Assembly: GCF_012726195.1 (NCBI RefSeq)
Contig: NZ_JAASAF010000006.1
Location: 248,001 to 312,000, forward strand
Direction: 5' to 3'
Source: Rhodococcus sp. HNM0563
GTDB lineage: Bacteria; Actinomycetota; Actinomycetes; Mycobacteriales; Mycobacteriaceae
DNA: 64,000 nucleotides
This document shows, one piece after another, positions 6,350 through 18,794 of the stretch (position 1 is its first letter; every line of letters starts with the position of its first letter). Below the pieces are notes generated by a model that was given only the letters and a program-made list of their open reading frames with translations, ran no database searches and was not told the DNA's origin. Position numbers and translations under genes: made by a program.

Positions 6350-7081
6350 ATGACGGAACCAGCGCGTAGCAACCATCCGATTCGCCTCGACGACCTCATC
6401 GAGGCGATAAAGAAAGTTCATCCCGACGCCCTCGATCAACTCCAGGACGCCATGATCGCCGCCGAACACCTCGGGGAGGTCGCCGACCACCTCATCGGCC
6501 ATTTCGTCGACCAGGCCCGACGCTCCGGTGCGTCGTGGTCGGAGATCGGCCAGCGCATGGGCGTCTCCAAACAGGCTGCCCAGAAGCGATTCGTGTCCAA
6601 GGCCGACAACGATCTCGACCCGAACGAGGGATTCAACCGATTCACACCCCGCGCGAGGAACGTGGTGATGGCCTCGATGAACGAGGCACGCGCCGCAGGC
6701 AATGTCGAGATCACGCCCGAACACCTCGTACTCGGGTTGTTCGCGGAACCAGAGGGTCTTGCGGCCCGCGCGATGGCCGCGCAGGGTGTCGCGCAGGGCG
6801 AACTACGACGTACCGTTCTTGCTGCGCTTCCGGCGAAGACGACCGGTCAGGTACCCGAGCTCATTCCATACGACGCGCGCGCTCGAAAAGCTCTGGAACT
6901 GACGTTCCGGGAGGCGCTTCGACTCGGCCACAACTACGTGGGCACCGAGCACATTCTCCTCGCGCTCCTCGAACTGGAGAACGGAACGGGAGCGTTGTCG
7001 TCGGCGGGTGTCGACAAGTCGACGGTCGAAGCGCACGTAGCCGAAGCGCTCGACGCGATTATTGCCGAGCAGGAGAAGTAG
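6350..7081 (+). CDS. HTH plus Clp N-terminal domain protein
   Basis: This is a 243-residue cytoplasmic protein with two parts. Residues 10-85 are helical and contain WSEIGQRMGVSKQAAQKRF, a good helix-turn-helix. Residues about 95-240 form two Clp_N repeats (FTPRARNVVMASMNEAR, ITPEHLVLGLF, then ARKALELTFREALRLGHNYVGTEHILLALL), as in the N-domain of ClpC/ClpA, but no AAA+ ATPase module follows. It is probably a DNA-binding regulator or adaptor that senses Clp substrates or stress. No Shine-Dalgarno fits before the ATG, so the transcript may be leaderless. Autoregulation through the tandem palindromes is likely. Confidence 0.85.
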   Translation: MTEPARSNHPIRLDDLIEAIKKVHPDALDQLQDAMIAAEHLGEVADHLIGHFVDQARRSGASWSEIGQRMGVSKQAAQKRFVSKADNDLDPNEGFNRFTPRARNVVMASMNEARAAGNVEITPEHLVLGLFAEPEGLAARAMAAQGVAQGELRRTVLAALPAKTTGQVPELIPYDARARKALELTFREALRLGHNYVGTEHILLALLELENGTGALSSAGVDKSTVEAHVAEALDAIIAEQEK

Positions 7082-7105
7082 CACGAACCCAACCCTGCCC
7101 GAAGT

Positions 7106-7123
7106 TGCTCAGAATCCGCACAG
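7106..7123 (+). promoter_or_regulatory. Candidate SARP box upstream of precursor A
   Basis: TGCTCAG (7106-7112) and CGCACAG (7117-7123) are direct heptamers separated by 4 bases (11-bp period), 65 bases before the precursor start. SARP activators bind this architecture next to the -35 region. An almost identical copy precedes precursor B, and a SARP gene lies in the same cluster. Confidence 0.6.
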
Positions 7124-7145
7124 TGCCTTCCGCGAACGTGACCCT

Positions 7146-7164
7146 GTGCCGGAACGTCCGGCAC
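7146..7164 (+). promoter_or_regulatory. Inverted repeat in the precursor A leader
   Basis: GTGCCGG and CCGGCAC (7146-7152 and 7158-7164) flank a 5-base spacer, 24 bases ahead of the start codon. The counterpart before precursor B keeps the arms but changes the spacer. This suggests a conserved RNA hairpin or an operator. Confidence 0.5.
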
Positions 7165-7188
7165 GCACGCGACGCGAGGAGATCTGAC

Positions 7189-7353
7189 ATGCGCACATTC
7201 GTCATCGACACAATTCCGGTGGAGGGCGTGGAACTGGACGAATCACGGCTTGCTCGGATTGTCGGCGGCCGGCCCACGAGTCGGGGTGACAGGGAGCGGA
7301 CCGGCTGCACCCCCGATAGCCCTATCCAAGGGGACGATCCAATCCTGCCTTGA
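7189..7353 (+). CDS. RiPP precursor peptide A (double-glycine leader)
   Basis: This 54-residue peptide is preceded by a GAGGAGA ribosome site. Residues 1-27 are a leader ending LARIVGG, the Gly-Gly site cut by C39-peptidase exporters. The leader has the acidic helix GVELDESRLA and shares 17 of 27 positions with precursor B. The predicted core (28-54) is hydrophilic, with Thr, Ser, Asp, Glu and Arg, one Cys, and PDSPIQGDDP near the end. These are residue types that ATP-grasp ligases join through ester or amide links. It is followed by a strong hairpin terminator. No known RiPP family was recognised from the core. Confidence 0.8.
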   Translation: MRTFVIDTIPVEGVELDESRLARIVGGRPTSRGDRERTGCTPDSPIQGDDPILP

Positions 7354-7373
7354 GTCCGGAATACCGGTCACTC

Positions 7374-7413
7374 GACTCGGCGAGGGACGCACAATTGTGT
7401 CCCTCGCCGAGTC
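7374..7413 (+). terminator. Strong hairpin terminator after precursor A
   Basis: Perfect 15-bp arms GACTCGGCGAGGGAC (7374-7388) and GTCCCTCGCCGAGTC (7399-7413) surround a 10-base loop that holds a small palindrome, ACAATTGT. It begins 21 bases after the precursor A stop and separates the two precursor transcription units. Confidence 0.8.
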
Positions 7414-7449
7414 GTGTCCAGCAGCAGTGTATCTGCTGCGCTAATTCAT

Positions 7450-7467
7450 TGCTCAGAGTCTGCACAG
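7450..7467 (+). promoter_or_regulatory. Candidate SARP box upstream of precursor B
   Basis: TGCTCAG (7450-7456) and TGCACAG (7461-7467) are direct heptamers with a 4-base spacer, 63 bases before the precursor B start. Position, spacing and sequence match the copy at 7106-7123. Confidence 0.65.
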
Positions 7468-7491
7468 TGGCCCTCGTGACGATATCCGTGC

Positions 7492-7508
7492 TGCCGGGAG
7501 GTCCGGCA
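7492..7508 (+). promoter_or_regulatory. Inverted repeat in the precursor B leader
   Basis: TGCCGG (7492-7497) and CCGGCA (7503-7508) flank GAGGT, 22 bases before the start codon. The arms match those of the element at 7146-7164. Confidence 0.45.
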
Positions 7509-7530
7509 CGGAACACACGAGGAGAGCCGA

Positions 7531-7707
7531 ATGAGCAAGTTCGCAATCGACACGATTTCCGCGGCCGGCGCCGAACTGGACGAGTCACACCTGGCCGGTG
7601 TCGTGGGCGGCATGCCGAAAATCTGTCAACAACCGACCGTGCTCAAATTGGAATCGGGTAACGCGCCGGATCGGACCCTTCCCGGCGACCCGCGGAGCCG
7701 ATGCTGA
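7531..7707 (+). CDS. RiPP precursor peptide B (double-glycine leader)
   Basis: This 58-residue peptide follows a GAGGAGAG ribosome site. The leader (1-27) has the same length as that of precursor A and keeps F-x-IDTI, ELDES and LAxVVGG. The core (28-58) differs almost completely, carries two Cys (one near the front in KICQQ, one as the last residue) and has APDRTLPGDP, which echoes PDSPIQGDDP of precursor A. This is the expected picture of one maturation system acting on two divergent products. Cleavage after the second Gly by the C39 exporter is inferred. Confidence 0.8.
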   Translation: MSKFAIDTISAAGAELDESHLAGVVGGMPKICQQPTVLKLESGNAPDRTLPGDPRSRC

Positions 7708-7764
7708 GAACCACGCAGGCGAACTGAACTGTGTCCCCCTTGGGGGATCCGTAGCGGTCTTTGG

Positions 7765-7790
7765 CCCGGGGCACCACAGTGTGCCCCGGG
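7765..7790 (+). terminator. Hairpin between precursor B and the maturase
   Basis: CCCGGGGCAC and GTGCCCCGGG (10-bp perfect arms) flank a 6-base loop. A partial terminator here would yield more precursor than enzyme mRNA, a common feature of RiPP operons. It lies just ahead of the GGAGGG ribosome site of the ATP-grasp gene. Confidence 0.6.
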
Positions 7791-7812
7791 TTGTCCTGGA
7801 GGGTTTCGTCCC

Positions 7813-8826
7813 ATGCCTCATGTTCTCGTCCTTACTCAACCCGGTGATTTGCACGCGGACGCCGTGATCGAACGGCTGATCCAGCGCCAGGCGAGGTACA
7901 CAATCTTCGATCCGGGTGACTTCCCATCCAACGCAGCAATGTCTGTGTCGTACGACCGGTCCGGACTCATCGGACGCACGCTTCTCGGGTCGGGGCGTCC
8001 TCTTGATCTCAATGCTGTCGACAGCATCTGGTGCCGCCGACCCAGCCCGACCACCCCAGCGCCCGAAATCGAGGATCCCATTGCACAAGAATGCGTTCGG
8101 GACGAAGGCGGTACGTTCTCCGCGTACATATGGGACAGTCTGGATTGCCTTTCGGTACCTGGAAAAATGCGGTCCATACGACATGCATCATGCAAGCCTG
8201 AACAACTGTCTCGTGCGGGTGCGCTCGGTTTGGAGATACCTCCGACACTCGTCACGACGGATCCGGAAGAGTTTCTGGATTTCTGGGATCACCATGACGG
8301 ACAAATCATCACGAAGCCCTTGGACAATCCCAGTCTTGGCGTGGGCGGACGCAGCTTCGTTCGATTCTCTGAGGTACCTACCACTATGGATCTCGCTTCG
8401 GCCGATGCGATCCGTTTCTGCCCGGTGATCACGCAGGCCTACGTACCCAAACTCGTCGAACTGCGGGTGACAGTCGTCGGTGATCGTGCGTTTGCGGTTG
8501 AAATCGACAGCCAGCGAAGCAATCATGCTCGCGGCGACTGGCGCAAGTACGACTCCACGCAAGGCCTGTACGCAGTTCACTCGCTGCCGGACGAAATAGC
8601 CGAGCGCTGCGTTCGACTCGTGACCGAGTTCGACCTGAACTACGGCGCACTGGATCTGATCTTCACACCCGACGGGCGCTATGTCTTCCTAGAGATCAAT
8701 CCAGGCGGCCAATGGCTGTGGCTCGAAGAAGCGACAGGTATCCCGATTGCGGACGCGGTAGCAGACCTGCTGGTGTCCTCCGACGAACGGTTTTCACGAT
8801 CCTCGACGAACGGAGCTTTCCGATGA
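7813..8826 (+). CDS. ATP-grasp ribosomal peptide maturase (MvdC/MvdD-like)
   Basis: This is a 337-residue ligase of the ATP-grasp superfamily. The ATP-binding Lys is in IITKPL near residue 166, and the metal-binding end motif DGRYVFLEINPGGQWLWLE lies at about 288-306. The NPxGQWxWLE form is typical of the maturases that make side-chain ester or amide crosslinks (macrolactones/macrolactams) in microviridin-type graspetides. The N-terminal domain (1-120) is expected to bind the leader. It starts after GGAGGG and overlaps the next gene by ATGA. Codon third positions are visibly less GC-rich than in the genes around it, a sign of possible transfer. Confidence 0.85.
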   Translation: MPHVLVLTQPGDLHADAVIERLIQRQARYTIFDPGDFPSNAAMSVSYDRSGLIGRTLLGSGRPLDLNAVDSIWCRRPSPTTPAPEIEDPIAQECVRDEGGTFSAYIWDSLDCLSVPGKMRSIRHASCKPEQLSRAGALGLEIPPTLVTTDPEEFLDFWDHHDGQIITKPLDNPSLGVGGRSFVRFSEVPTTMDLASADAIRFCPVITQAYVPKLVELRVTVVGDRAFAVEIDSQRSNHARGDWRKYDSTQGLYAVHSLPDEIAERCVRLVTEFDLNYGALDLIFTPDGRYVFLEINPGGQWLWLEEATGIPIADAVADLLVSSDERFSRSSTNGAFR

Positions 8827-9938
8827 CCCCCACCATGCCGTCGCAAGACCATTGCGTCGACGCGAGTCTACTGTCGGCGCTCCTGGATGTGATCCGCCTG
8901 AAGAACAGTCCATTCGGCGACGAGCAAGCGCACTCATCGGAAGCCCTCCGTGTCCTACGTGAGAAGAATCCCGAAGTCCGGATGCGGCTCGTGCGACACG
9001 TGGAACCGTTCGACGAATCGTCCCAGAGCGCACTGCTCATCACCGACACGGAGGGAAACGTGACAACGGTGTCGTGGTCGCCGCCCTCGACTGTGCCGTG
9101 GCCGCTTCGAGGAGCACGACGAGCCGGTGAATCGACCCTGTTGTCCGTCGACGGGGAGACACTCACGGTCGGCGAAACCATTCTGCATCTCGACGGGATG
9201 TGGGATCGTCCGGACCTCCTCACCGGACTCATCGATGCTTGCGTGATACGTATCGAGCTCGAGGAAGCCCCTGTCGAGTTGACCGACGCACAGATGCAGG
9301 ACGCTCTCGACGCGTTCCGCCGGGCGCGAGGTCTGCTCACTCGTCACGAAACCGAGGCATGGATGGCGCAGAATCATCTGAGCCCAATCATGTTCGAGCG
9401 AACAGTCCGGCACGAAGCCGAGCTTGCGAGCCTTCGTCGTCGCGTGGTCGCCGATCGTGCGTCTGCGTGGCTGCGCGAGCATGGAGAGACCCTCGACCGT
9501 GCGCGTATCGCGCGCGCTGTCTTCCCGGACCGTGCAGAGGCACGCGAGTTCGCGGCACGGGTTGCCGACGTTCATACCTACGAGGCGGATGACGCGATCC
9601 GTTACTTTGCAGGCGAACTGGGGCTTGTCGTAGCCGACGGTCGCGGGAAGGCGGAATTCTGCGACGTCGGGCGCGGCGATCTTGACGGCGAACTCGCAAA
9701 TCTGATTTTCGCTGCGGAGCCGGGGACGGTGATGGCAGCCGAGGTGAGCTATGGCGAATGGGAGGTTGTGCAGGTCCTCGCCGTGTATCGAACGCGGAAC
9801 GACGCCGCTGCTCTGCACATCGTCGAGCGTCGACTGTTCGACGAGTGGCTTGCCGAGCGCAGGCGCGCCGCGCGTGTCGAGTGGTTCTGGGGAGAGGCCG
9901 AGAAGACCGATCGCGTGACGGCGGGCATGGCGTCATGA
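8823..9938 (+). CDS. Peptide maturation protein, PpiC/SurA-like
   Basis: This is a 371-residue protein translationally coupled to the maturase (ATGA overlap). The first 150 residues have no fold I recognise. Residues about 155-260 are helical and rich in Arg/Ala, like the chaperone part of SurA or PpiC proteins. Residues about 265-345 (from RYFAGELGLVV to WEVVQVLAVY) resemble a parvulin rotamase domain with the ELANLIFAAEPGTV segment. I recall a family of putative peptide maturation system proteins with this layout next to RiPP maturases. It has no signal peptide, so it probably acts in the cytoplasm as a precursor chaperone or leader-binding partner. Function unproven. Confidence 0.6.
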   Translation: MTPTMPSQDHCVDASLLSALLDVIRLKNSPFGDEQAHSSEALRVLREKNPEVRMRLVRHVEPFDESSQSALLITDTEGNVTTVSWSPPSTVPWPLRGARRAGESTLLSVDGETLTVGETILHLDGMWDRPDLLTGLIDACVIRIELEEAPVELTDAQMQDALDAFRRARGLLTRHETEAWMAQNHLSPIMFERTVRHEAELASLRRRVVADRASAWLREHGETLDRARIARAVFPDRAEAREFAARVADVHTYEADDAIRYFAGELGLVVADGRGKAEFCDVGRGDLDGELANLIFAAEPGTVMAAEVSYGEWEVVQVLAVYRTRNDAAALHIVERRLFDEWLAERRRAARVEWFWGEAEKTDRVTAGMAS

Positions 9939-9951
9939 CAGGGGCAAAGTC

Positions 9952-12102
9952 GTGACGCGCAGGGTTCGGTTGCGACACCAGTCGGGGATCTCGGACTGCG
10001 GTGCAGCATGCCTGGCCATGATTCTCGACTTCTACGGTGCACCGATGCCGGTCAACGACGTGGCGGACAACCTTGCAGTCGGGCGCGACGGGACGACGGC
10101 GCTCGCACTGGTTCAGGTTGCCCGCGACTACGGTCTGGACGTGCGCGCGTTCGGCCGGCCCGCCGAGTCGATCGCCGACGGACACACGAGGTTGCCGGCC
10201 GTAGTGCATTGGGATCACAACCATTTCGTCGTTGTCGACCGTGCGACGGCGCGATACGTGGTGGTGGTGGATCCGAGTCGGGGACGGCAGCGCCTGTCGC
10301 ACACTGATTTCGCGGAGCGGTACTCGGGTGTGGTGCTCGAGTTCGGTGCGGGCGACATATCGTCGAGAACGCGGCAGGTACGGCACCGCGATACCCGCTG
10401 GCGGCGAGACTTCCTCGGACTCGTGTGGCGGGGCAACCGCGCATCGTTTGCCGGGGTCCTGAGTGCAGCGGTGATTCTGCAGATCGTCGGTGTCATAGTC
10501 CCTTTGCTCACCGCAATGTTCATCGACAGGGTCATTCCCGAGTCCGATTTCGGGCTCCTGGGCATCCTTGCGATTGTGGTCGTGGGTATCGCCTTCGTAC
10601 TCCTTGCTCTGGGGGCACTGCGTACCGTGGTCATCGCTCGGATCCGTCGGCGGGTCGATGCCGTGCTCACCGGTTATTCGGTCGAGCGACTGTTCGCACT
10701 GCCGTTCACGTACTTCATGCGACGGGGCACCAACGACGTTGCTCAACGCATCGGCGGTATCAGTACAATTCGTGATCTGTTCACCGAGAGGGTTGTGGCT
10801 GCTCTGCTCGACGGTCCACTTGCCCTCACCTATGTCGCAATAGTGATGTGGTGGGCACCGAGCGTCGGGGTCGGACTGCTGGCACTGACAGTGGTGCAGG
10901 CGTTGCTGATCGGCGTTGTGCATCGACGAGTTGTCGATCTCTTGCAACGTGAGGCTGCGACGGCGGCCGAAGCGGAGGGCACGCTCATCGAGAGTATTCG
11001 CGGTGTCGAGACGGTGAAGGCGTCGGGAACCGAGGCTGTGGTGATTGCCCGGTGGAAGCGATTGTTCGAACATGCTCTCGCCGTGTCGGTCCGCAGTTCG
11101 CTCGTGTCGGGACTGGTCGACGCCGCACAGGCGGCTTTGCGTGCGGTTGCGCCCGCGGTGCTCCTGTTCGTCGGGGCGGTTCATGTGGTGAGCGGCAGGC
11201 TTTCTCTCGGTCAGCTGATTGCGGTCAACGGGATGGCAGTGGTGGCGCTCGGATGCGTGACGTCGTTGCTCACACTCGTGCAGTATCTGCAGTCCGCTGC
11301 GGCATATGCACGGCGCCTTCAGGACATCCTCGAATCGGATGTGGAACAGGAAGGTCTCGACGTAACTACGGCGCCGCAACTTTCGGGAGCGATCCGGCTT
11401 CGGGGTGTCGGGTTTCGTTACGGTCCGAGGTCCCCGTGGGTACTCCGCGGCATCGAGTGCGATATTCCGGCGGGCACCACAGTCGCGTTGGTGGGGCGGT
11501 CGGGTTCGGGGAAGAGCACGCTCGCGCGCCTACTGCTCGGGTTGTACGTCCCAGAGGAAGGCACCGTTCTCTACGACGGACTCGACGCGCGGTGCTTGGA
11601 GGCGCGGTCACTGCGTGCACAGTTCGGCGTGGTGACACAGGACAGCACCCTGTTCACCGGGAGCATCGCTGACAACATTGCTACGGGCAATCCCGATGCG
11701 CCGTTCACGGATATCGTGCACGCGGCCTCTCTCGCGCAGATCCACGAGGATGTTGTTGCGCTGCCGATGGGCTACGACACGGTTCTCCGCGAGGGAAGTG
11801 GTCTCTCCGGTGGGCAGCAGCAGCGCGTGGCGATAGCTCGTGCACTCTTGACTCGACCTCGGGTGTTGTTGTTCGACGAGGCGACGAGCGCCTTGGATTC
11901 CATGACCGAAGCTGCGGTGGTAACCGGACTCAGGCAGCTGCGCCAGACCCGCATCGTCATCGCACATCGCTTGTCGACGGTGCGCACCGCCGACCTGATC
12001 TTGGTGCTCGAGGCAGGCAGGGTCGTCGAACGCGGCAGCCACGCACAGCTGCTCGAGCGCCAGGGGATCTATGCAGGGATGTGTGCGGAATCAGGGCGGT
12101 AA
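9952..12102 (+). CDS. Peptidase-containing ABC transporter (C39, leader-cleaving exporter)
   Basis: This is a 716-residue PCAT in one chain. The C39 peptidase domain (1-130) has Gln10, catalytic Cys16 in SDCGAAC, His near 88 in WDHNHFVVV, and an Asp in VVDPSRG. An exporter membrane domain follows (about 160-430, five to six helices). The nucleotide-binding domain (about 465-715) has Walker A GRSGSGKST, signature LSGGQQQR, Walker B VLLFDEATSALD and a switch His in IAHRLS. The family cuts after Gly-Gly and exports the core peptide; both precursors here end their leaders in VGG. The GTG at 9952 follows AGGGGC; the nearby ATG at 9935 runs into a stop. Confidence 0.9.
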   Translation: MTRRVRLRHQSGISDCGAACLAMILDFYGAPMPVNDVADNLAVGRDGTTALALVQVARDYGLDVRAFGRPAESIADGHTRLPAVVHWDHNHFVVVDRATARYVVVVDPSRGRQRLSHTDFAERYSGVVLEFGAGDISSRTRQVRHRDTRWRRDFLGLVWRGNRASFAGVLSAAVILQIVGVIVPLLTAMFIDRVIPESDFGLLGILAIVVVGIAFVLLALGALRTVVIARIRRRVDAVLTGYSVERLFALPFTYFMRRGTNDVAQRIGGISTIRDLFTERVVAALLDGPLALTYVAIVMWWAPSVGVGLLALTVVQALLIGVVHRRVVDLLQREAATAAEAEGTLIESIRGVETVKASGTEAVVIARWKRLFEHALAVSVRSSLVSGLVDAAQAALRAVAPAVLLFVGAVHVVSGRLSLGQLIAVNGMAVVALGCVTSLLTLVQYLQSAAAYARRLQDILESDVEQEGLDVTTAPQLSGAIRLRGVGFRYGPRSPWVLRGIECDIPAGTTVALVGRSGSGKSTLARLLLGLYVPEEGTVLYDGLDARCLEARSLRAQFGVVTQDSTLFTGSIADNIATGNPDAPFTDIVHAASLAQIHEDVVALPMGYDTVLREGSGLSGGQQQRVAIARALLTRPRVLLFDEATSALDSMTEAAVVTGLRQLRQTRIVIAHRLSTVRTADLILVLEAGRVVERGSHAQLLERQGIYAGMCAESGR

Positions 12103-12158
12103 CCTCGAGGTCTGCAGGTCCCCGGAAGTGGGGCCGTGACCGTTCGGGGGGATGTCAC

Positions 12159-15017
12159 GTGGGCTCGGTACCTGCACGGATCACCGTCTGTGTTCTCGGC
12201 CCGGTCACGGCGTTCCGTGACGGTGTGTCGGTCGATCTCGGCGGACCACGTCAACGCGCCCTGCTCGCTTCACTTGCGGTCGCGGCGCCGCACGCGGTGA
12301 GTGCGGCGCAGCTTCTCGCCGATGTGTGGCACGACGTTCCGGCGCCGACGGCGAACGCACTGCATTTCGCCGTGTCGAAGCTGCGGCGTCATCTCGATCC
12401 TCTGCGTGGCCGCGGGCAGCACGGTCCGGTTGTGCGCAGCGGATCGCACTATGCATTGCGGGTCGCTGAACTGGACTCGGCCCGATTCGATGCTCTTGTG
12501 AGGGAGGCCCACGGTGTTCGCGCCGGATCGGCGCCGTCTGCTCCCGACGATGCCGCAGTGCTTCTCAACGAGGCGCTCGGGCTGTGGAGGGGCGAACCGT
12601 ATCAGGACACTGCACACCTCGCCGGTATCGTTCCCGAACGGACACGACTGGACGGGCTGTACCGCGACGCATCGTGTGCACTCGTCGACATCGACCTCTC
12701 GCGCGGACGCGCCCAGGAGGCCCTCCGTACCGCGGAGGCTCTCGTAAATCGGTATCCGCTCGACGAGAACGCGTGGGCGTTGCTGGCGCGTGCCATGTAT
12801 CTGAGCGGTCGTCAGGCCGACTCGCTTGCCGCGATTCGGACGCTGCGGCGGACACTGATGGACGAGCTCGGTGTCGATCCAGGTGCGCTCATCGTGGAAC
12901 TCGAGCGAAAGATCCTCTCGCACGAGGTCGTGGATGATGCGGTGCCGGTGCCGCCAGCGCCGGCGCCCGAGGCCGCAGTGATCACCGATGAGCCGCCGAA
13001 GATGCCTCCGGCCCTGCCTGTTTCTCGCAGTCGGTTGATCGGACGTGCGGGTGACCTGTCGCGGGTGCCGGAACTGCTGGGCAAGCACGCTCTCGTCACC
13101 CTCTTCGGCCCGGGCGGAGTCGGGAAGACGCGCCTTGCCCTCGATGTGGCCGCAGGTGTGCGAATCGGCGACGGCACCTGGTTCGTAGACCTTGCCGGAG
13201 TCGTCGACGAGTCGTCGATCGTTGTGACCGTGGCGCAGACACTCGGTGTGCCGAGCGTGGACACTCCGGAGCAACTCGCCGAGCTGATCGGCTCACGCAC
13301 GACCTATCTCATTCTGGACAATTGTGAGCACCTCGTCGACGCAGCGGCACACCTCGTGTCGGTGCTTCTCACGCAGTGCCCGCACGTGCGCATTCTTGCC
13401 ACCAGTCGGGAATTGTTGGACGTGGACGGCGAATTCGGATACGAGGTGAGGCCTCTCGATCACGATTCTGCTGAAGAACTGTTCGCTGATCGCGCCGCTT
13501 CATTCGATTCGAGCTGGACACTGATGGACTCGGATCGCGTATCGGTACACAGGATCTGTGAAGGCCTCGACGGGCTTCCGCTTGCGCTCGAACTCGCCGC
13601 TGCACAATTGTGTGTGCTGTCCGAAGAGCAGATCGCCGATGGGTTGACCGATCGGTTCACTCTGCTCACCGAAGGTCCGAGACGTCTCGGAGCACGCCGA
13701 CGCAGTCTGATGGACACTGTCGGCTGGAGTTATCGGTCACTCGATGACACAGCGGCTTCGGCGTTGCGTGCACTGTCGGTGTTCGCCGGAAGTTTCGACA
13801 TCCACGGAGCTGCGGCCTTGCTCGGCGAGACCGAGCCGCTTCGCGCGGTCGAGACCGTACGCGCATTGGTGCGGCGATCGTTGCTGTCGGTGGTACCCGG
13901 TACCCGGACCCGGCGATATGTGATGCTGCAGACGATAAAACAATTTGCAGCACAACAAATGCTGCCTGACGAGCGCGAGCGCATTGCGTCTGAATATTAC
14001 GCCTGGGTGGTCCGCAGAGCTACCGCCCTGGCCGCCGAACTGCGTGGGTCCGGTGCGCGAAATGCAGTGTCCGAGCTCTTCGCAGACAGCGCGGAGCATC
14101 GAGCAGCGCTGACCGCAGCGGTCGACCGGGGCGACTCCCATTACGTTCTCGAATTGTCGGGTGCGCTGTACTGGTTCTGGTACCGGCAAGGCAATGTGTC
14201 GGAAGGGCTGAGGTTCTTGCGATTCGGGATCGACGGTGTCGACCGGCATCCGATTGTGCCGAAAGCGGCGCATCTCGGCAGGGCGCTCATGGGCACGGCA
14301 CTCCTGACCGATCTCACCGGCGATTCCGAATCCGCCCTGCACCACAGTGAACGGGCGTGGTCGATACTCCATGAGGCCGGCGATGCAGCGGAGATCGCCT
14401 ACGCAGATTCCCTGCGGGCGTACTACCGAACGGTGTGCGGCGACCACGGTGGGGCCGTAGGCATCGTGCAGCGAAGGCTCGAAGTCGCAGGTTCGCTCGG
14501 TGACGACTGGATCGCGGCTTCACTACTGATGGTGCTGGGGATAGCCCAGCGGGGTGGTGGTGACAGTGCGGCACCGGAGACGTTGCGGACATCCGTCGAC
14601 GTCGGCCGCCGGTGCGGTTATCGATGGGTACCGATCTGTTCGCTGTGGGCGCTGGCCAAGATCGCCGCGGACTCCAACGACCACCGTCGAGGTCTGGCAC
14701 TCGCACGTGAGATCCTCCCGATTCTCGAAGAGGACGCCGAAGTCACCGGGTGGATCGTCACCATGCACACCGCGGCAGCAGCCCTCGCGCAAGCAGGACG
14801 GACAGCAGACGCGGCGCGTGTCCTCGGAGCTGCACGTGCGCACGGTGAACGCGCGGGCGTGCAGGCCGACCTACTCGATCCGTACGGTCCCCAGGAACAT
14901 GCGGCGATGACAGCGGCGGCACGCACCGGAACCTTCGACGCGTACTGCGCCGAAGGTTCCGGTCTCACCCGTGAGGAAGTGAATGCTCTGATCATGGCTA
15001 CGTCGCCATCGCGCTGA
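12159..15017 (+). CDS. SARP/AfsR-type transcriptional regulator
   Basis: This 952-residue regulator is read from the GTG at 12159, which follows GGGGGG at 7 bases; the longer frame would overlap the exporter without a ribosome site. It has an OmpR-type winged helix (about 5-95, GGPRQRALLASLAV and ALHFAVSKLRRHL), a BTAD domain (about 100-245), an NB-ARC-like ATPase with Walker A FGPGGVGKT near 316 and ILDNCEHL near 388, then TPR-like helices to the end. AfsR-type SARPs activate secondary-metabolite genes by binding direct heptamer repeats. Such repeats occur before both precursor genes here, making this the likely pathway switch. Confidence 0.9.
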   Translation: MGSVPARITVCVLGPVTAFRDGVSVDLGGPRQRALLASLAVAAPHAVSAAQLLADVWHDVPAPTANALHFAVSKLRRHLDPLRGRGQHGPVVRSGSHYALRVAELDSARFDALVREAHGVRAGSAPSAPDDAAVLLNEALGLWRGEPYQDTAHLAGIVPERTRLDGLYRDASCALVDIDLSRGRAQEALRTAEALVNRYPLDENAWALLARAMYLSGRQADSLAAIRTLRRTLMDELGVDPGALIVELERKILSHEVVDDAVPVPPAPAPEAAVITDEPPKMPPALPVSRSRLIGRAGDLSRVPELLGKHALVTLFGPGGVGKTRLALDVAAGVRIGDGTWFVDLAGVVDESSIVVTVAQTLGVPSVDTPEQLAELIGSRTTYLILDNCEHLVDAAAHLVSVLLTQCPHVRILATSRELLDVDGEFGYEVRPLDHDSAEELFADRAASFDSSWTLMDSDRVSVHRICEGLDGLPLALELAAAQLCVLSEEQIADGLTDRFTLLTEGPRRLGARRRSLMDTVGWSYRSLDDTAASALRALSVFAGSFDIHGAAALLGETEPLRAVETVRALVRRSLLSVVPGTRTRRYVMLQTIKQFAAQQMLPDERERIASEYYAWVVRRATALAAELRGSGARNAVSELFADSAEHRAALTAAVDRGDSHYVLELSGALYWFWYRQGNVSEGLRFLRFGIDGVDRHPIVPKAAHLGRALMGTALLTDLTGDSESALHHSERAWSILHEAGDAAEIAYADSLRAYYRTVCGDHGGAVGIVQRRLEVAGSLGDDWIAASLLMVLGIAQRGGGDSAAPETLRTSVDVGRRCGYRWVPICSLWALAKIAADSNDHRRGLALAREILPILEEDAEVTGWIVTMHTAAAALAQAGRTADAARVLGAARAHGERAGVQADLLDPYGPQEHAAMTAAARTGTFDAYCAEGSGLTREEVNALIMATSPSR
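14925..14963 (+). repeat. 13-bp inverted repeat inside the SARP gene end
   Basis: ACCGGAACCTTCG (14925-14937) pairs perfectly with CGAAGGTTCCGGT (14951-14963). It lies in the last 30 codons of the regulator and could fold as a terminator-like hairpin within the coding sequence. Confidence 0.5.
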
Positions 15018-15112: not shown

Positions 15113-16594
15113 ATGAATCCCGTCGTCGAGACCACACGTGGCCGGGTACGGGGAAGGGTCGTGGACGGCACTGCAGTGTTCAAAGGTATTCCGTATGCGG
15201 CCACGCCTTCCGGCGACCGCCGGTTCGCCGCGCCGGAACCTGCACCTCACTGGACCGACGTGCGAGACGCGACCGAATTCGGTCCGACCGCACCTCAACC
15301 GCCCTACGGACCACCGCTCGACAAGCTGCTCGAGGAGGTGATGATTCCGGGTGAGAACCCGCTGAACCTGAATGTGTGGACCCCCGACCTCGAGGCTTCG
15401 CTGCCGGTGCTCGTGTGGATCCACGGCGGCGCATTCGTCCACGGCAGCAGTGCGATACCGATCTACGACGGAGCGAACTTTGCACGCGACGGCGTGGTTT
15501 TCGTCAGTATCAACTACCGGCTCGGGGCCGAGGGCTTCGCGCTGGTGGACGATGCCCCGGCCAACCGGGGTCTGCTCGATCAACTGGCGGCGCTCGAATG
15601 GGTCCGGGACAACATCGCGAAGTTCGGCGGCAATCCCCATTCGGTGACGATTGTCGGTGAGTCGGCGGGTGGGATGAGCGTCGGGGCGCTGCTCGCGATG
15701 CCCGCGGCGCAAGGCCTGTTCCACAGGGCGATAGCCCAGAGCGGAGCGGGGCATTCGGCGCTGTCGGCCGACACTGCGCGCACGGTGTCGGGTGCGCTCG
15801 CCGAGGCTCTCGACATCGAACCCACTCGCGCGGGCTTCTCGGCTGTCGACCCCGACCGGCTCATCACGGCGCAGGAAGAGCTGACCATGCGTATCCGTGG
15901 CGACAAGGACGCCGCGAAATGGGGTGAGATACCCACTCATGCAATGGCATTCGAGCCGTATATCGACGGCACGGTGCTGCCGGAGCTGCCCATCGACCGT
16001 CTCGCTGCCGAGGCCCGCTCCGACGTCGATCTCCTGATCGGCCACAACGAGGACGAGATGACCTTGTTCTTCGTGCCCTCAGGAGTCGATTCGATGATCG
16101 ACGACAACAGTCTTCGCGTACTCGCGGCCCGGTACGGGCTCACCGAACCCGCCGCCCTCGATGCCTATCGGTCGGCCCGGCCGGACTCGACACCGGGGCA
16201 GGTGCTCATGCATGTGCTGCGTGACTGGATGTATCGGATTCCGGCCGTGCGCATCGCCGAGGCGCGTGCCGCGCATGACGTCGCCACCTACGTGTATCGG
16301 TTCGACTGGAAAACACCCGTACTCGATGGCCGGCTCGGTGCGACGCACGCGCTGGACATCGGCTTCGCGTTCGACAACCTCCATGTCCCGGGCAATAGCG
16401 CCCTGGCAGGGCCCACGCCTCCTCAGGGACTCGCGCAACGAATGCATCAGGCGTGGGTGACCTTCGTGACGACCGGTGCGCCCGGGTGGGCAGCGTATGG
16501 ACAGCAGCGTACCGAGATGGTCTTCGGTGAGATCTGCGAGACCGTCGACGATGCCGAGCCCGACCTGCGTCAGTTGTGGCACGGGCTCCGGTGA
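15113..16594 (+). CDS. Type B carboxylesterase
   Basis: This is a 493-residue alpha/beta hydrolase of the carboxylesterase type B/PnbA group. The oxyanion-hole motif HGGAFVHGSS is near 103, the nucleophile elbow GESAGG has its Ser near 183, the acidic residue lies in the NEDEMTLFF region, and the catalytic His is in THALDIGFAF near 412. Length is normal and there is no signal peptide, so it is cytoplasmic. The start ATG follows GAGGAGA. It lies 95 bases after the SARP gene; there is no clear link to the RiPP cluster, though an esterase could serve in self-resistance or ester hydrolysis (speculative). Confidence 0.9.
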   Translation: MNPVVETTRGRVRGRVVDGTAVFKGIPYAATPSGDRRFAAPEPAPHWTDVRDATEFGPTAPQPPYGPPLDKLLEEVMIPGENPLNLNVWTPDLEASLPVLVWIHGGAFVHGSSAIPIYDGANFARDGVVFVSINYRLGAEGFALVDDAPANRGLLDQLAALEWVRDNIAKFGGNPHSVTIVGESAGGMSVGALLAMPAAQGLFHRAIAQSGAGHSALSADTARTVSGALAEALDIEPTRAGFSAVDPDRLITAQEELTMRIRGDKDAAKWGEIPTHAMAFEPYIDGTVLPELPIDRLAAEARSDVDLLIGHNEDEMTLFFVPSGVDSMIDDNSLRVLAARYGLTEPAALDAYRSARPDSTPGQVLMHVLRDWMYRIPAVRIAEARAAHDVATYVYRFDWKTPVLDGRLGATHALDIGFAFDNLHVPGNSALAGPTPPQGLAQRMHQAWVTFVTTGAPGWAAYGQQRTEMVFGEICETVDDAEPDLRQLWHGLR

Positions 16595-16623: not shown

Positions 16624-16674
16624 TCCGCAGGGTAGTCGTATACAGCCCAGCTCCTCTTGGGTCGGAGTAACCAC

Positions 16675-18794
<2,120 letters not shown>

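Follow-up and report, generated by a model that had tools for sequence, protein, structure and literature searches.

Genes at the locus

The DNA analysed here, below called the window, is a stretch of 64,000 nucleotides from Rhodococcus sp. HNM0563 (contig NZ_JAASAF010000006.1, positions 248,001 to 312,000). Near its start lies a run of genes that is very probably a graspetide cluster of the rosaritide type, meaning one that depends on a partner protein of family TIGR04500, here with two precursors. The original prediction for this DNA, made from the letters alone, had proposed a cluster for a graspetide-type ribosomally synthesised and post-translationally modified peptide (RiPP), in which the leaders end in GG, the exporter is of the C39 type and all genes lie on one strand. 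This is supported: the cluster genes are all on the + strand, and the synthetase matches graspetide models and structures and keeps the aligned catalytic residues.

The first two genes encode small peptides. Precursor peptide 1 (7189..7353, +) is 54 amino acids long, with a leader of residues 1-27 that ends in IVGG and a core of 27 amino acids; its predicted cut is ...LARIVGG^RPTSRGDRERTGCTPDSPIQGDDPILP. Precursor peptide 2 (7531..7707, +) has 58 amino acids, with a leader of residues 1-27 ending in VVGG and a core of 31. Here the predicted cut is ...LAGVVGG^MPKICQQPTVLKLESGNAPDRTLPGDPRSRC. Both open reading frames match NCBIfam model TIGR04497 (GRASP_targ_2, 'putative ATP-grasp target RiPP'). 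Given a cut-off of 32 bits, precursor 2 scores above it at 32.7 and precursor 1 slightly below at 31.2, and in both cases the alignment covers just the leader portion of the model (positions 1-30 of 50). The two leaders had been called near-identical. They are alike and both end in VGG, but an eye count gives 17 identities over the 27 residues of the leader, so the word was too strong.

Next comes a MirB-like ATP-grasp graspetide synthetase of 337 amino acids (7813..8826, +), in which the motif NPGGQWLWLE occupies residues 296-305. Its gene overlaps by 4 nucleotides (8823-8826) with that of the MirC-like, PpiC-related partner protein (8823..9938, +; 371 amino acids), which scores 312.5 bits on TIGR04500 (PpiC_rel_mature; cut-off 180). 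Published remarks, in the passages available, give such partners RRE-like (RiPP recognition element) and SurA-like domains. The exporter (9952..12102, +) is a MirD-like peptidase-containing ATP-binding cassette transporter (PCAT) that carries Peptidase_C39, ABC_membrane and ABC_tran in one chain, as had been predicted. It is also the sole match of PADLOC (mad3, mad8), which is taken as generic ATPase likeness. The last gene encodes a large regulator of the Streptomyces antibiotic regulatory protein (SARP) family (12081..15017, +; start codon uncertain). It has BTAD and Trans_reg_C domains and its best NCBIfam model is AfsR, in line with the type first proposed.

The search of other genomes that had been suggested finds the same two precursors and the same gene order at the same site in two further Rhodococcus genomes, Rhodococcus sp. 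SMB37 (L054) and Rhodococcus sp. JCM 9791 (L053), with relatives of precursor 1 and close relatives of the SARP in both. The latter is a draft, in which the synthetase, exporter and esterase reading frames are broken into pieces, perhaps due to draft quality. When the window is compared with SMB37, the ratio of nonsynonymous to synonymous substitution rates (dN/dS) comes to 0.18 in the synthetase gene, 0.17 in that of the partner, 0.14 in the exporter gene and 0.20 in the SARP gene; these genes are under purifying selection. The peptides are short, which makes their ratios imprecise: the leaders, at 27 codons each, give 0.21 and 0.38, core 1 gives 0.39, and core 2 gives 0.45 over the 17 codons that align.

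Two things could have overturned the proposal: an ATP-grasp protein belonging to a non-peptide ligase family, or small reading frames that are not conserved beside homologous maturases. Neither was found: the synthetase matches graspetide ligases, and both precursors recur next to homologous maturases in other genomes. A search against RiPP maturase families returned TIGR04500 for the partner and graspetide synthetase models for the ATP-grasp protein, the best being TIGR04187. The MvdD and MvdC models also match, below their cut-offs though far above chance. The nearest solved structures are 5ig8, 7m4s, 5ig9 and 7mgv, which go by the names ATP grasp ligase, AMdnB and CdnC. Residues K168, E216, R218, D281, E294 and N296 are conserved in 105 to 107 of 107 aligned synthetases; judging by the alignment, we take these to be ATP, catalytic and metal residues. 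A weaker similarity to the RimK family could mean that the enzyme works on a small molecule or adds glutamates, and that the peptides are unrelated to it. This is extremely improbable, as graspetide models and structures score far above the RimK family, and a leader-bearing precursor lies upstream of the synthetase at 101 of the 108 loci surveyed below.

Comparison with known systems

The closest described system is that of rosaritide from Micromonospora rosaria, a member of graspetide group 21, with a precursor (mirA), a TIGR04187 synthetase (mirB), a TIGR04500 protein (mirC) and a PCAT (mirD)(PMC13097080, 2026). According to the available passages of that paper, MirB alone causes no mass shift in MirA, while MirB and MirC together remove up to 54 Da. 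The two copurify as an active complex, and the product has three ester macrolactones, S8-D22, S9-D26 and T11-D24 (PMC13097080). The same passages call the dependence on a partner unprecedented among graspetides characterised before (PMC13097080).

The window shares with this cluster a precursor with a predicted PCAT cut site, a TIGR04187-type synthetase, a TIGR04500 partner and a PCAT, in the order precursor, synthetase, partner, exporter. Of the traits of group 21, the TIGR04500 partner beside the synthetase is present, as is an NHLM-type PCAT, while an SSxT...DxDxD core is absent. The window also differs in having two precursors where one is described for rosaritide, neither with an SSxT...DxD core, and in its SARP gene and repeat-bearing promoters; no SARP is named for rosaritide in the passages available (PMC13097080).

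This means that the system is not undescribed, as had been thought. Apart from the SARP, its genes are those of mirABCD as given in these passages (PMC13097080), and NCBIfam models TIGR04497 and TIGR04500 already cover the precursor leaders and the partner. The type of enzyme machinery is known, having been characterised in 2026; new here are the two precursors and cores that depart from the rosaritide pattern. Literature searches on graspetides and Rhodococcus, on group 21 and on ATP-grasp/PpiC maturation returned no title on this locus. They did not extend to the more than 20,000 predictions in the supplements of PMC13097080, which may list it.

A 2022 survey of graspetides is also relevant. 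In the parts available, its cluster 145 corresponds to TIGR04500, is associated with ATP-grasp loci and has 40 occurrences in Table 1; such loci are said to be mostly complex and actinobacterial (PMC8939145). Graspetide modification is only predicted for that cluster, and these parts give no core pattern (PMC8939145). They do describe other graspetide branches in which leaders stay alike while cores differ (PMC8939145).

Microviridin-type synthetases (PDB 5ig8 and 5ig9) have in common with the window enzyme the ATP-grasp family, an ELR motif and aligning residues near D281, E294 and N296. The leader and cores are different. The two structures are presumably MdnB and MdnC.

Survey of TIGR04500 loci

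Genomes were searched with TIGR04500 in several overlapping samples. Above the cut-off there were 4 of 18 genomes of the genus, 4 of 397 in the order sample, 15 of 394 in the class sample and 2 of 396 in the phylum sample. The figures are 3 of 250 for the family of Micromonospora, 1 of 112 for that of Blastococcus (G379) and 63 of 250 for the Streptosporangiaceae sample. At E <=0.001 the matching genomes number 16 (order), 22 (class), 47 (phylum), 10 (Micromonospora), 1 (Blastococcus) and 82 (Streptosporangiaceae). Two of 14 control genomes matched weakly, below the cut-off. No relative of the partner was found among viral contigs. Among plasmid records there is a single distant one, at 27.4% identity, carried by a plasmid of Herpetosiphon.

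From this, 119 stretches were assembled. They comprise the window, 8 loci gathered earlier and 110 further places, most of which come from above-cut-off matches in the Micromonospora-family, class and Streptosporangiaceae searches. Two of these, L059 and L184, are the same locus, which is counted twice throughout. A synthetase directly precedes the TIGR04500 gene in 108 of the 119. The other 11 stretches do not have this; TIGR04500-like genes lacking a recognised synthetase directly upstream occur at L118, L122, L123, L124, L169, L173, L176, L177, L182, L205 and L206.

A leader profile, refined iteratively under a threshold on score and a filter on position, without a shuffled control, finds 127 precursors (>=11 bits) at 101 of the 108 synthetase-TIGR04500 loci, and none at 7. 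Twenty loci have two or more. GG stands exactly at the end of the leader in 119 of the 127 precursors, and SSxT...DxD occurs in 5 (13 if relaxed to SSx[TVL]...DxD). The cores of Micromonospora relatives L050, L051 and L062 fit the rosaritide residue numbers. Many other cores are unlike it, for example ...DPPGVC.., ...KPAEW.. and ...HTSGDSN. Single-linkage clustering at 45% identity merged 91 of 110 distinct cores, and was not used for counting core types.

TIGR04500 systems are common and multiplied in the Streptosporangiaceae (the source of most of L097-L206), with up to 6 matched pieces per genome. Their loci hold several core types that are not described in the literature passages available. 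Six loci (L097-L100, L105 and L144) have two to four precursors with a common leader and a [DNS]PPG[VIY]C-type core, which looks like a related peptide set from one synthetase.

The two cores

Several observations weigh against assigning the window to the rosaritide type. The synthetase scores 251.3 bits on TIGR04187, below the cut-off of 350, and the exporter reaches 539.4 bits on its best NCBIfam model, TIGR03796, under the cut-off of 853.3. MirB is said, in the passages available, to keep a 'DFR' motif (PMC13097080), but the aligned motif here is ELR, with E in 106 of 107 sequences and R in all 107; the window and the Micromonospora relatives are alike in this, and ELR is likewise found in microviridin-type ligases (5ig8, 5ig9). 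Neither window core has SSxT...DxD or SSx[TVL]...DxD. Finally, core 2 has no alignable similarity to its counterpart in SMB37 (855 of 1000 shuffles score as well), and therefore may not be a crosslinked product.

That the cores would fit no known graspetide pattern had been part of the original prediction. This stands for the rosaritide pattern, which was the sole one compared. The locus might nonetheless be a plain member of group 21 whose rings are connected as in rosaritide and whose spacing has drifted, given that its gene set is that of mirABCD apart from the SARP and that its nearest neighbours in the synthetase tree (L052 and L049) have rosaritide-like cores. This is improbable, since even the relaxed pattern is missing not only from both window cores but also from those of SMB37 and JCM 9791.

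Suitable residues are present: core 1 has 5 D/E acceptors and 5 S/T/K donors, core 2 has 3 and 6. This is a weak test, because all 127 precursors hold at least one of each.

Core 1 is the better conserved of the two. Between the window and SMB37, 14 of 27 aligned positions are identical, and none of 1000 shuffles does as well. By eye, the three Rhodococcus genomes have in common R1, R5, D7, R10-T11-G12-C13, P15, D16 and a DDP run. The contrast with core 2, which in the window also clusters alone among cores, raises an alternative in which precursor 1 alone is a true graspetide. The second precursor would then be a duplicate that is decaying or evolving fast, with a core free of crosslinks, or it would act as a helper, decoy or signal. 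Some chance must be given to this, but it is unlikely. The precursor 2 leader is kept in SMB37 (21 of 27 residues; dN/dS 0.375, from few sites), the direct repeat upstream of it is the same in each of the three Rhodococcus genomes, it outscores precursor 1 on TIGR04497, and SMB37 and JCM 9791 have a common core 2, with differences between them at 3 of 28 positions. A frameshift as the source of the unlike core 2 was considered and dropped: reading the core 2 DNA of the window in three frames against the SMB37 core 2 gave scores of 15, 21 and 13, with no convincing match, the scores being without a shuffle comparison.

The conserved cysteine of core 1 deserves attention too. Cys13 directly follows Thr11-Gly12 in all three Rhodococcus core 1 sequences, and the string [KR][TS]GC..D..DD (with 2-12 residues before DD) also turns up at 4 Streptosporangiaceae loci, so that a core class common to the window and two-precursor loci of that family was considered. 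Non-native thioesters are mentioned for graspetide synthetases in the available text of PMC13097080. It is conceivable that the enzyme pair forms a linkage other than an ester or amide, for example a thiolactone via this cysteine or one in core 2. The chances of this are slim. The Streptosporangiaceae likeness is not clearly beyond chance, as the best score of window core 1 outside Rhodococcus is reached by 14 of 300 shuffles; core 1 of SMB37 best matches another core type (L163/L107), at a score reached by 29 of 300 shuffles. Moreover, the Streptosporangiaceae synthetases with such cores sit in another clade, and the cysteine may simply form a disulfide. With these alternatives weighed, a rosaritide-type cluster with two precursors is still the preferred reading, and the most likely products of the locus are two small cross-linked peptides that are exported.

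Synthetase tree and cluster limits

In a maximum-likelihood tree of 107 synthetases, the window and SMB37 group together in a clade (100/100) whose stem measures 0.5 changes per column. Next to it stand Rhodococcus aetherivorans L052 (99/83) and Blastococcus L049 (94/95), each having a single precursor with a rosaritide-like core, of the strict pattern in L052 and only of the relaxed one in L049. On the simplest reading, a single-precursor, rosaritide-like ancestor gave rise to the Rhodococcus branch with two precursors, which changed its cores. L049 and L052 are flagged for long end branches, so their places in the tree are somewhat doubtful.

The limits of the cluster rest on two Rhodococcus genomes without TIGR04500 (G784 and G781). 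In these, about 0.9 kb, occupied by an unrelated gene, separates the relatives of the upstream ClpN-domain gene (window 6350-7081) and of the downstream carboxylesterase (15113-16594). As the two stand so close together where the cluster is absent, they are excluded from it, which puts its limits at about 7.1 to 15.1 kb.

A small gene (L233 4405-5061; also in L234) occupies the place of the cluster in the two cluster-free Rhodococcus genomes. On inspection, the encoded protein resembles a secreted Cu/Zn superoxide dismutase, but it has no NCBIfam match. Further along the window, a catalase HPII gene is split over two overlapping frames (16657-17541 and 17376-18794, +), which match positions 36-281 and 281-744 of the model. 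A single frameshift seems to be the cause, whether it lies in the sequence or in the gene itself; the matching stretch of L233 is spanned by an open frame of 606 codons.

Regulation and non-coding elements

Both precursor genes open with the same module, consisting of a SARP-box-like direct repeat, a GAnnnT hexamer, an inverted repeat and a ribosome-binding site. Upstream of precursor 1 the repeat (7105..7123, +) has heptamers TGCTCAG and CGCACAG, which agree at 5 of 7 positions only; upstream of precursor 2 (7449..7467, +) they are TGCTCAG and TGCACAG. Both have an 11-bp period, and the consensus is TTGCTCAGAnnnYGCwCrG. SARP boxes are two direct heptamers, repeated at an 11-bp period and located close to the -10 element of the promoters under SARP control, according to the passages available (PMC5930380, PMC10936776). 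The hexamer is about 10 bp past the repeat by eye, as against 8 bp in the SARP literature.

Using a pattern drawn from these two sites themselves, and at most 1 mismatch, the repeat occurs 2 times in the 5.54-Mb genome, both upstream of these precursors; the backward control gives 1. The repeat lies upstream of both precursors in SMB37 and, in this exact pattern, of precursor 2 only in JCM 9791.

SARP control had been predicted as well. The repeats upstream of both precursors are suggestive of it, and only that. Against reading more into them, 11-bp repeats agreeing at 6 of 7 positions are found in 8 of 19 upstream regions at loci with a SARP match and in 27 of 108 at loci without one, which is no clear difference; other periods reach up to 5 of 19 and 27 of 108. 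As a family-wide test of SARP control, the 11-bp heptamer repeat failed.

A very stable hairpin (7374..7413, +) sits between the precursor genes. Folded as 7362-7420 it has an energy of -43.8 kcal/mol (z -8.28), and 0 of 200 shuffles are as stable. No T-run was found with it, and a consensus scan of 7060-7840 detected no promoter-like and no terminator-like site. The hairpin may act as a partial terminator and in that way maintain high expression of the precursors, or it may stabilise the mRNA.

How the cluster may work and what it means

A way in which the parts could fit together is as follows. The SARP would activate both precursor genes via separate, duplicated promoters. The conserved leader would bring each precursor to one complex of ATP-grasp synthetase and TIGR04500 partner, by analogy with MirB and MirC. 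There the synthetase would phosphorylate Asp/Glu side chains, which Ser/Thr/Lys, or possibly the conserved Cys, would attack to give side-chain macrocycles, each with a loss of 18 Da. In core 1, the candidate residues common to the relatives are Thr11, Cys13 and Asp7/Asp16/Asp22/Asp23. The C39 exporter would then cleave after GG and secrete both cores, judging by its domains and the GG sites. That the secreted pair acts on, or signals to, other bacteria is a guess.

A broader idea, offered tentatively and less likely than not, is that TIGR04500-partnered synthetases are a crosslinking platform that is addressed by the leader and permissive of the core. The Rhodococcus pair would then make two secreted macrocycles from dissimilar cores, with a ring pattern unlike that of rosaritide and possibly a cysteine nucleophile, giving a native thiolactone.

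The rosaritide core is the sole characterised case found for these synthetases. With SSxT...DxD in 5 of 127 precursors, the survey suggests that rosaritide represents a small part of the core diversity of TIGR04500 graspetides. The Rhodococcus locus offers a natural case of one enzyme pair matched to two different cores, which makes both the job of the partner and the extent to which the leader alone directs crosslinking directly testable. Knowing these could be of use in the production of macrocyclic peptides.

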